In this document: positions 48,195-60,932 of the stretch, in pieces
Layout: every line of letters starts with the position of its first letter
Position numbering within the stretch: the first letter of the stretch is position 1
Assembly: GCA_012728835.1 (NCBI GenBank)
Contig: JAAYEJ010000042.1
Location: forward strand, 1 to 64,000
Origin: Candidatus Brocadiaceae bacterium
GTDB lineage: Bacteria; Planctomycetota; Brocadiia; SM23-32
Direction of reading: 5' to 3'
Length of the DNA: 64,000 bases
Notes under the pieces: model-generated
The model's database searches: none
The model's input: the letters and a program-made list of their open reading frames with translations, nothing else
What the model was told of the DNA's origin: nothing
Translations under genes and position numbers: made by a program

Positions 48195-48244
48195 CGGCGG
48201 TGGAACCACAACGGCACGACGAGCACGACGGGAAGACAACGGAT

Positions 48245-48274
48245 CACAGCCGGGGGCGGCTGTGCCACATGCGG
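48245..48274 (+). repeat. Half copy of the inverted-repeat family, R4
   Basis: CACAGCCGGGGGCGGCTGTG, followed by CCACA, matches the right-hand arm of copy R3 (59193-59213 region). The left arm is not found within 60 bp. It is itself a short palindrome. It lies in the 350-bp divergent gap between leuB and the zinc-ribbon genes, which otherwise holds only the two promoters. Confidence 0.6.
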
Positions 48275-51850: not shown

Positions 51851-51978
51851 CAGCCCGTTGAGGAAGTGCTCTTGGTTGGCACAGGCACCCTCGCCTGTGC
51901 GCTCCTGCCTGCAAGCAGGCCGCTCCAGACCTGGACCAACAGCCGAGGGCGGCCGTTCCACACTCCGTCAACGGGCGG
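51851..51978 (+). repeat. 128-bp nested inverted-repeat element, copy R2
   Basis: It begins CAGCCCGTTGAGGAAG (51851-51866) and ends CTCCGTCAACGGGCGG (51963-51978), an imperfect inverted pair. An exact 20-base match to R1 (CCAGACCTGGACCAACAGCC) lies at 51925-51944, against 21997-22016 in R1. The same inner inverted arm is present (GTTGGCACAGGCACCCTC against GGGCGGCCGTTCCAC). It lies between the YbjQ gene start and the 3' end of the membrane-protein gene. Confidence 0.8.
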
Positions 51979-58094: not shown

Positions 58095-58124
58095 TTGACA
58101 GGCCCGCCGACGGCGACGTACGAT
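58095..58124 (+). promoter_or_regulatory. Promoter for the secreted protein at 58186
   Basis: Perfect TTGACA (58095-58100), 18-bp spacer, TACGAT (58119-58124). Back to back with the minus-strand promoter, 20 bp apart. Confidence 0.6.
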
Positions 58125-58185: not shown

Positions 58186-59094
58186 ATGAGACGGTCTGTG
58201 GTGTGGGTGCTGGCGGCTTCCGTCGTGCTTCTGCAGGCGTCCGTTGCCGGGCAGACCGTGGACCCGGCCGAGGCGCTCGGATGCCGCGTCGTCGGCCTCC
58301 GCGTGGTGGGCGACACGGGCACCGACCCCGACACGTGGGACTGGGAGATGATGCCGTTCGGCGAGCGGATGGGCACCACGCTTGTGCTGGCGGTCATCTC
58401 CCGCTCTGCGGAGGTCGTGCCGCTGGCGACGGCCGTTGCGCAGTTCCGGGCCTTCCGCGACAGCGCCGGCACGGACCTGGCCGCCCCCGAACCCGACGAG
58501 GCGGCGCTGGAGTACTGGGAGCTGAACGTAGGGCTCAACCCGGCGTCGCCGAAGCTCGTGCGCCTCATGGAGGTCCGGGCCGGCAGCATCCCGGCCGCCG
58601 GCAGCCGTTCGATTCAGGCCGAAGGCACGCTGGCGGTCGTTGCCGGCATGCAGCCCGCGGCCGCCCGTCAGGAGGCCGTGCCGCTCCGGAAGGGCACCCG
58701 GATCACCGCCGGCCCCGTGCCCTTCGAGATCACCGAGGTCACCGTGGCCGATGCCGCCGACGCCCCGGCCGAGGACGACATGTCGATGGCCTGGCCGGCC
58801 GAACCGGTGATGACCGTGACGCTCGAGGCCCGCGAGGCGCTCGGGCAGATCGCCTACCTGGAGATGCTCGACGCCGACGACAAGCCCATCCAGTGGACCA
58901 GCCAGGGGAGCGACACGAGCCTGTCGTTCGCCGACGACGGGACGCCCTCGACCGAGGGGAGGTTCCGGATCGGCCTGCCGCAGAAGCGGGAGACGGTGAC
59001 GGTGGTGGTCCACTACTACGGCGAGGTCCGGAAGGTAGAACTGCCCTTCGCCATCGACTGCGGCGTGGTCGTGGAATCGCTGACCGCGCCGTGA
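58186..59094 (+). CDS. Secreted beta-rich protein of unknown function
   Basis: 302 residues. Sec signal peptide (RRSVVWVLAASVVLLQASVAGQ; cleavage near residue 22). No family recognised. The mature part alternates beta strands and Ala/Glu/Asp-rich linkers. It ends in a domain with TLEAREALGQIAYLEMLDADD and KRETVTVVVHYYGEVRKVELPF, resembling the Ig-like or DUF4384-type folds of planctomycetal envelope proteins. Its only neighbours are the divergent DUF4175 gene and repeat R3 downstream. Confidence 0.72.
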   Translation: MRRSVVWVLAASVVLLQASVAGQTVDPAEALGCRVVGLRVVGDTGTDPDTWDWEMMPFGERMGTTLVLAVISRSAEVVPLATAVAQFRAFRDSAGTDLAAPEPDEAALEYWELNVGLNPASPKLVRLMEVRAGSIPAAGSRSIQAEGTLAVVAGMQPAAARQEAVPLRKGTRITAGPVPFEITEVTVADAADAPAEDDMSMAWPAEPVMTVTLEAREALGQIAYLEMLDADDKPIQWTSQGSDTSLSFADDGTPSTEGRFRIGLPQKRETVTVVVHYYGEVRKVELPFAIDCGVVVESLTAP

Positions 59095-59134
59095 CCCGGC
59101 CGCACCCGGACGGCCGGCGAGGACGCCGCCGTCT

Positions 59135-59215
59135 CGTGTGGCACAGCCACCTCCGGCTGTGGCTGCATGCGCCCCAGCACGGAACGCACAGCCGGGGGCG
59201 GCTGTGCCGCACACG
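59135..59215 (+). repeat. 81-bp inverted-repeat element, copy R3
   Basis: Left arm CGTGTGGCACAGCC (59135 on) and the complementary right arm ending GGCTGTGCCGCACACG (59215) pair along about 27 bp. This is the inner hairpin of R1/R2 (GTGTGGCACAGC...). The outer CAGCCCGTTGA arms are absent. It lies 20 bp upstream of the -35 box of the small transcription unit. Confidence 0.7.
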
Positions 59216-59235
59216 GCGGTCCGGCTTCCTTTCCC

Positions 59236-59263
59236 TTGACACCCGGCCGTCCCGGTGTAGAAT
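59236..59263 (+). promoter_or_regulatory. Strong promoter of the small transcription unit
   Basis: Perfect TTGACA (59236-59241), 16-bp spacer, TAGAAT (59258-59263). Predicted start near 59270. Confidence 0.65.
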
Positions 59264-59320
59264 CCCGGGCCAGGTTTCGGACTGACTGATCAACGAATCC
59301 CCCTCTGCCGGAGGCGTCGA

Positions 59321-59380
59321 ATGACCGTTGCGAGAGCGCAGAGCGTCGTCGTGTCACGCCTCGGGCGGGCTCGATCCTGA
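59321..59380 (+). CDS. Candidate 19-residue peptide or leader ORF
   Basis: ATG 59321 with a perfect GGAGG at 59310-59314 (6-base spacing) encodes MTVARAQSVVVSRLGRARS and stops at 59380. It lies inside a very short transcript bounded by a strong promoter (59236) and two terminators (59410, 59454). The peptide is basic (4 Arg) with three consecutive Val. It could be a free small protein, a leader peptide, or incidental to a non-coding RNA. An anti-terminator pairing between 59363-59368 (GGGCGG) and the terminator's left arm (59414-59419) is possible. Confidence 0.5.
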   Translation: MTVARAQSVVVSRLGRARS

Positions 59381-59409
59381 GGGCGCGTTCGCGTCCTTGA
59401 CTGAATGAT

Positions 59410-59444
59410 CCGGCCGTCCCATTTGGGGCGGCCGGTTTCGTTTT
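59410..59444 (+). terminator. Intrinsic terminator 1 of the small unit
   Basis: CCGGCCGTCCC (59410-59420) pairs with GGGGCGGCCGG (59425-59435) over 11 bp with one G-U pair, a 4-base loop, then TTTCGTTTT. Compact and strong. Confidence 0.85.
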
Positions 59445-59453
59445 GGCGCACCG

Positions 59454-59488
59454 GCCGCAGGCGTGACAACCTGCGGCTTCTTCTTTTT
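59454..59488 (+). terminator. Intrinsic terminator 2 of the small unit
   Basis: GCCGCAGG (59454-59461) pairs with CCTGCGGC (59470-59477), loop of 8, followed by TTCTTCTTTTT. It lies only 10 bp after terminator 1. No gene lies between it and 59651. Confidence 0.85.
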
Positions 59489-59650
59489 CGTCGGTCAGCA
59501 CTCAACCACCGGGAACATCTATGACATCCGCGAAGGTTGTCGTCAATGCGTCCATCCACGGCGTGAAGCACAACAGCCGCGGCCCGGCCTCGCCTTCGGG
59601 CGCCGTCGCCGCTTTTGCACAGAATGCACAGACATGCAGGGAGTCACTGC

Positions 59651-60040
59651 ATGCGACGACGATACGAATCACGCGCCGCACAGGCCGTCCCCGAGGCCGC
59701 CTGCGTCTGCGCGCAATGTCGCAACGTCATACCCGGCCAGGCGCCGGGCACCGAACATAGAAACCACTGTCCGCACTGCCTCTGGAGCCTGCACGTCGAC
59801 ATGCGCTCGGGCGACCGTCGCTCGGGCTGCCGGGGGCTCATGGAACCCATCGCCGTCTGGGTCCAGAAGAACGGGGAATGGGCGCTCGTGCATCGCTGCA
59901 CGGAGTGCAGCGTCGTGCGCACGAACCGCATCGCCGGCGACGACAGCGTGCTGCTGCTGATGTCGCTCGCCGTGCGTCCGCTGGCGCGTCCGCCGTTCCC
60001 GCTGGACTCGCTGCGGCACGGGCTCGCCGCGCCGCCGTGA
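59651..60040 (+). CDS. RNHCP-domain protein
   Basis: 129 residues. Contains the RNHCP-domain signature HRNHCPHCLWSLHVD plus a second cysteine pair (CVCAQC) and a late one (HRCTECSVVRTNR), so one or two zinc sites are likely. The role of this domain is unknown. ATG 59651 has GGGAG 8 bases upstream; the frame continues upstream to 59615 without homology. It lies 162 bp after the tandem terminators, so it needs its own promoter, which I could not find. Confidence 0.78.
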   Translation: MRRRYESRAAQAVPEAACVCAQCRNVIPGQAPGTEHRNHCPHCLWSLHVDMRSGDRRSGCRGLMEPIAVWVQKNGEWALVHRCTECSVVRTNRIAGDDSVLLLMSLAVRPLARPPFPLDSLRHGLAAPP

Positions 60041-60092
60041 CCCGGCTGCCACGGGCGTGTATACTGGGGCCTTCACTCACGGTGAGGGCCCC

Positions 60093-60932
60093 ATGCACGT
60101 ACCGGAGCCGTACGGCGACGACATAGCGGCGGTCTACGACCTGCTGGTCGAGGGGCACGAGGATGCCGAGGTCGGCGGGCGGGAGCTGGCCTTCATCCTC
60201 CGGGCCCTGCGGGAGGTGTGTCGGCGTCCGGTGCACGATGTCCTCGACGCCGGCTGCGGCACGGGCAAGCACCTCATCCCCCTCGTGAGAGAAGGCTTCC
60301 GTCTCACGGGCATCGACTACAGCGAGCCGATGGTCCGCGAGTGCCGCCGCAAGCTCGACCGGCGCGGCCTGGATGCCGAACTGCTCGCCGGGGACCTGCT
60401 CGAGTTCGACCGGCCCGCGGCCTTCGACGCCGCCCTCGCGATGCATTCGGTCATCTGCTACCTCGTCGAGACCGAGCGCATCATCCTGGCGCTCCGCGCC
60501 CTGCGGCGGGCGCTCCGGCCGGGCGGCCTGCTGCTCCTGGACAACGTCAACGTGCTCGCGCAATGGATCACGTTCGACGAGACCTACTGGGACAAGCGCG
60601 TCGGCGAGACCATGGAAGTCGAGTTCCAGGAACGCCGACGCTTCGACGACTTCGCCGCGCTGTTTCACCTGGAGGTCAGGGCGACGGTGCGGGCGGAGGG
60701 CCGCGAGCACGGGATCCACAACGAGGACGTCCTGCGCGTCATGACGGTCGGCGAGCTATGCTGCTACCTCAGGGAAGCCGGCTTCCGCGTCCTCGCCGCC
60801 TACCCCGCCTTCGACTTCGACACGTCCGACGAGCCCTCCGGCGACCGCACCATCCTCCTGGCCGAAGCGGCGGCGGGAGCCAGAGGATGGAGATCGCACG
60901 CAGAAGGGCCTCCTGCAGCTCGCCCTTCCTGA
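60093..60932 (+). CDS. Class I SAM-dependent methyltransferase
   Basis: 279 residues. Motif I VLDAGCGTGKHLIPLVREG, acidic TGIDYSEPMVRE, then LAGDLLEFDRPAAFDAALAMHSVICYL and the LRPGGLLLLDNVN post-motif. Fits the Methyltransf_25/11 group of small-molecule methyltransferases. The start ATG 60093 has only a modest GTGAGG upstream; a TATACT box at 60059-60064 may be its -10. The last 164 bp overlap the tail of the convergent kinase-like ORF. Substrate unknown. Confidence 0.82.
   Translation: MHVPEPYGDDIAAVYDLLVEGHEDAEVGGRELAFILRALREVCRRPVHDVLDAGCGTGKHLIPLVREGFRLTGIDYSEPMVRECRRKLDRRGLDAELLAGDLLEFDRPAAFDAALAMHSVICYLVETERIILALRALRRALRPGGLLLLDNVNVLAQWITFDETYWDKRVGETMEVEFQERRRFDDFAALFHLEVRATVRAEGREHGIHNEDVLRVMTVGELCCYLREAGFRVLAAYPAFDFDTSDEPSGDRTILLAEAAAGARGWRSHAEGPPAARPS

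Follow-up and report, generated by a model that had tools for sequence, protein, structure and literature searches.

Which product, if any, is made from the compact transcription unit at positions 59236 to 59488 of this DNA? The window is the whole 64-kb stretch that was analyzed. Within it, a promoter, a body, and two terminators form one short unit that has no longer gene inside. An initial annotation had offered three candidates: an abundant sRNA, a leader-peptide attenuator, or a small protein. Of these the sRNA is the best fit, and the others are weakened by a buried Shine-Dalgarno (SD) sequence, by codon usage, by a lack of homologues, and by the presence of an RNHCP gene downstream. We therefore consider the locus to be, with fair probability, a free-standing intergenic gene for a lineage-specific noncoding sRNA of about 170 to 175 nt. 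The anatomy on which this view is built can be read directly from the DNA, and its elements are as follows.

59236 to 59263, + strand: sigma-70-type promoter, TTGACA-16-TAGAAT, 11 of 12 consensus bases
59270 to 59443, + strand: predicted sRNA, with a start at 59268-59273 inferred from the position of the -10 element and a 3′ end placed in the U-tract of terminator 1
59280 to 59291, + strand: first copy of the motif, GACTGACTGATC, within the 5′ leader, which is mostly unpaired; one of two occurrences in the genome
59299 to 59305, + strand: CCCCCTC tract, a putative anti-Shine-Dalgarno seed, about half unpaired (mean probability 0.56 in the 174-nt transcript)
59304 to 59369, + strand: main hairpin from the predicted fold, core of the RNA, with inverted arms 59307-59317 and 59356-59366; it encloses the small ORF's SD and start codon
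59321 to 59380, + strand: 19-codon ORF, MTVARAQSVVVSRLGRARS, probably incidental, with ATG at 59321 and stop at 59378-59380
59379 to 59398, + strand: short hairpin with a UUCG tetraloop, present in every fold
59399 to 59410, + strand: second copy of the motif, GACTGAATGATC, at the base of the terminator 1 stem, the other of the two genome occurrences
59410 to 59443, + strand: intrinsic terminator 1 with U-tract, stem 59410-59435, 11 bp of which 10 are G-C, TTTCGTTTT
59453 to 59488, + strand: intrinsic terminator 2 with U-tract, a candidate backup or insulator, stem 59453-59478, 9 bp of which 7 are G-C, TCTTCTTTTT

The promoter had been described as near-perfect, and this description holds. Its -35 element (TTGACA, 59236-59241) and -10 element (TAGAAT, 59258-59263) are separated by a 16-nt spacer, and the 11/12 score is a sequence match only. 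Three sites scoring at least 11/12 exist in the 64-kb window, compared with a mean of 0 (no such site at all) in 30 dinucleotide shuffles. High transcription from this promoter is plausible. A divergent promoter-like pair (58095-58124 and 58075-58047) also lies between the 302-aa and 903-aa genes, which suggests that the sigma-70 consensus may be a useful guide in this genome.

Terminators were sought across positions 1 to 60000, with an added local scan up to 60500. In window positions 1 to 60000, 13 further terminator-like sites were found, all with fewer G-C pairs than either terminator of the unit, and the interval 58500-60500 contains three such sites versus 0.5 expected. The annotated pair of strong terminators was thus recovered, but the 10-bp gap assigned to it was not. 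The two stems are 17 nt apart, and a value of 10 is reached only if the first U-tract is left out. Taken together, the promoter and the terminators are well beyond chance.

The 174-nt transcript is predicted to fold with a minimum free energy (MFE) of -84.7 kcal/mol versus -70.8 for shuffled sequences (z = -3.0), and extension to terminator 2 (219 nt) yields -105.5 (z = -3.7). From the 5′ end, the fold consists of a weak 5′ stem, the main hairpin, the UUCG hairpin, and terminator 1. The locus exhibits three features expected of an intergenic sRNA gene, namely a promoter of its own (the 11/12 site), its own Rho-independent terminator (here, two), and a stable fold by both z scores. Orphan intergenic sRNAs of bacteria resemble this locus in size and fold stability, in lying between genes, and in having their own promoter and an intrinsic terminator; the locus differs from them in having two terminators in series and no homologue or known chaperone or target.

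Searches for relatives were made against 75 genomes of the class, among which the genus is represented by this genome alone. By blastn, the unit matched only itself, and the 74 other genomes returned nothing. A covariance model built from the single sequence gave just one match in those 74 genomes, at 26.3 bits in a genome of the same family (G004), which we judged to be a chance hit and rejected because it lacks a promoter and overlaps other reading frames. The E-values of this model are too generous, since a 16-bit match within the window itself receives E = 0.0086. DNA matches at three loci (L002, L003, and L005; query positions 127-157) were likewise set aside as chance because the surrounding unit is missing and they look like coding sequence. 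No homologue of the unit was found in Rfam or among phages, plasmids, and viral contigs. Membership in the alphaproteobacterial sRNA family suhB/mmgR (RF00519) was rejected at 14.9 bits versus a cutoff of 41 (E = 2.1); the 3′ half overlaps weakly, at chance level, at the terminator, and our candidate also has a C-rich stretch. A literature search found no study of sRNAs from this lineage. Given that there is no homologue, no covariation backs the fold, and the unit is either lineage-restricted or evolving too fast to detect.

The alternative that survives best, although we regard it as unlikely, is that there is no gene here. The terminators would then stop transcription that runs on past the 302-aa gene upstream, and the promoter-like sequence would either be incidental or serve the downstream gene. 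The 302-aa gene is indeed co-directional and ends at 59094. Against this reading, promoters scoring at least 11/12 were found in none of the 30 window shuffles, and this one is placed between the gene and the terminators. Furthermore, a large palindrome (59129-59219) already follows the upstream gene. The 302-aa protein has one distant homologue, in the same-order genome G001, where an aminotransferase gene comes directly after it and no such unit is present; it has no relative in the genome contig collection.

REP/BIME-like elements of the form GGCACAGCC-N5-CGGCTGTG, with variants such as GGCACAGGCGCCCTCGCCTGTG, are located at 59129-59219, 48243-48266, and 51878-51899, and the pattern has 36 matches in the genome when up to two mismatches are allowed, versus 4 for a reversed control. 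The palindrome pair that immediately precedes the sRNA promoter lies in the segment 59095-59235, which has a folding energy of -95.9 kcal/mol (z = -6.9). Rfam matches to miRNA-named families on 59120-59226 were discarded as artefacts of the long palindrome.

It is likewise unlikely that the unit is an mRNA for the 19-residue basic peptide MTVARAQSVVVSRLGRARS. The GGAGG-spaced ATG and its 19-codon ORF had been annotated correctly, with GGAGG at 59310-59314 preceding the ATG by an ideal 6-nt spacer, and SD-ATG sites in the window mostly belong to long ORFs. Because 5 of the 23 such sites lead to ORFs of fewer than 20 codons, the ORF alone is weak evidence for a coding function. In the main hairpin, the latter half of the ORF base-pairs with the SD region, and therefore the SD and ATG are rarely unpaired (probabilities of 0.20 and 0.13, versus medians of 0.56 and 0.57 for the 17 long SD-bearing ORFs of the window). 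Hence, the accessible ribosome-binding site expected of a small protein gene is not seen. Its codon usage is not gene-like either: the codon log-likelihood of the ORF is negative and is exceeded by that of 98.5% of 18-codon gene segments, a comparison that has low power at 18 codons. Accessibility and codon usage both point away from the peptide, which also has no homologue, and the ORF is probably incidental.

We give somewhat less credence to a leader, in which the small ORF and an alternative pairing of 59352-59361 with 59459-59468 would determine whether transcription passes the terminators and enters the RNHCP gene (starting near 59654). This gene, the next on the same strand, spans 59654-60040 and encodes an RNHCP zinc-ribbon protein (PF12647, E = 2e-35), and no promoter scoring at least 9/12 precedes it. 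The pairing that had been proposed, between GGGCGG and the first terminator, is absent from the MFE folds. A different long-range pair appears, in which a 10-nt perfect complement joins the ORF to the left arm and loop of terminator 2; one as long or longer occurs in 2.6% of shuffles, and the pairing forms in the MFE structure of the 219-nt RNA. However, this pairing is seen with terminator 2 only, and terminator 1 must still be passed. Alternative folding upon read-through is accordingly conceivable in the model, with no bypass of terminator 1.

A short ORF ahead of terminators and competing pairings do resemble leader-peptide attenuators, but the locus departs from them in other ways. Apart from VVV, the peptide shows no run of a diagnostic residue (it has 4 Arg among 19 residues), the RNHCP protein is not a biosynthetic enzyme, and both of the two terminators are intact. 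Among RNHCP loci elsewhere, 61 of the 71 with enough upstream DNA carry no terminator 50 to 550 nt upstream, and none of 80 examined has a credible match to the sRNA model. The RNHCP gene itself did not turn up in any other genome of the order. Its closest homologues (61 to 68% identity over the best segment) are in Opitutia, Verrucomicrobia, Lentisphaerae, Spirochaetales, Phycisphaerae, and Pseudomonadales bins, and it was possibly acquired horizontally.

Identity as 6S RNA was tested because Rfam 6S is present in 55 of the 75 class genomes and in none of the nine from this family. A diverged 6S RNA (RF00013) filling this gap would have a similar length and its own promoter, as the locus does. 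We also built a class-specific model from 24 aligned 6S RNAs of the class. Run against the order, it scores 98.6 bits in G001, whose 6S RNA was included in the training set, and no match in this family exceeds 16.6 bits. A filtered search of the window returns no match, and when the filters are disabled the locus scores 2.2 bits at most. Because neither this model nor Rfam 6S matches the locus, and because the RNA folds as separate hairpins rather than as a rod with an open central bubble, we reject this identity as very improbable. In the nine genomes of the family (G000 and G002-G009), several of which are incomplete, no recognizable 6S was found, and the nearest outgroup (G001) has one. The missing 6S would reflect loss or extreme divergence and is a matter separate from the sRNA locus.

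For the sRNA gene itself, transcription, RNA abundance, and mode of action are all inferred. The strong housekeeping promoter would start transcription near 59270, and the RNA would adopt the main hairpin, the UUCG-capped hairpin, and the terminator hairpin. Most polymerases would stop at terminator 1, and terminator 2 would catch read-through and shield the downstream RNHCP gene. The RNA probably works by base pairing in trans or by binding a protein. Most likely, it would either regulate in trans by means of its exposed 5′ leader, where the C-rich tract would be the anti-Shine-Dalgarno seed, or be bound by a protein at its two GACUGANUGAUC copies.

With regard to these copies, the 3.07-Mb genome contains GACTGANTGATC just twice, and both occurrences share a strand and fall within the predicted transcript. 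An 11/12 repeat arises somewhere in 3% of shuffled transcripts, and the motif was chosen post hoc. The motif pair is thus a lead, not proof. A bolder version, in which the RNA represents a new class of sRNA, specific to a planctomycete lineage whose family has no recognizable 6S, and acts as a global regulator through two GACUGANUGAUC copies that bind protein or mRNAs, strikes us as a long shot. The locus is most likely an sRNA gene of an ordinary kind but neat construction, intergenic, restricted to its lineage, and closed by two successive terminators.

If it is transcribed, the unit would add a clear example of a stand-alone sRNA gene from a little-studied, mostly uncultured lineage, apparently class Brocadiia of the Planctomycetota. 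Sigma-70 promoter and intrinsic terminator signals are readable in this genome, which has a GC content of 70%, and a whole family with no recognizable 6S RNA gives reason to examine its abundant RNAs.
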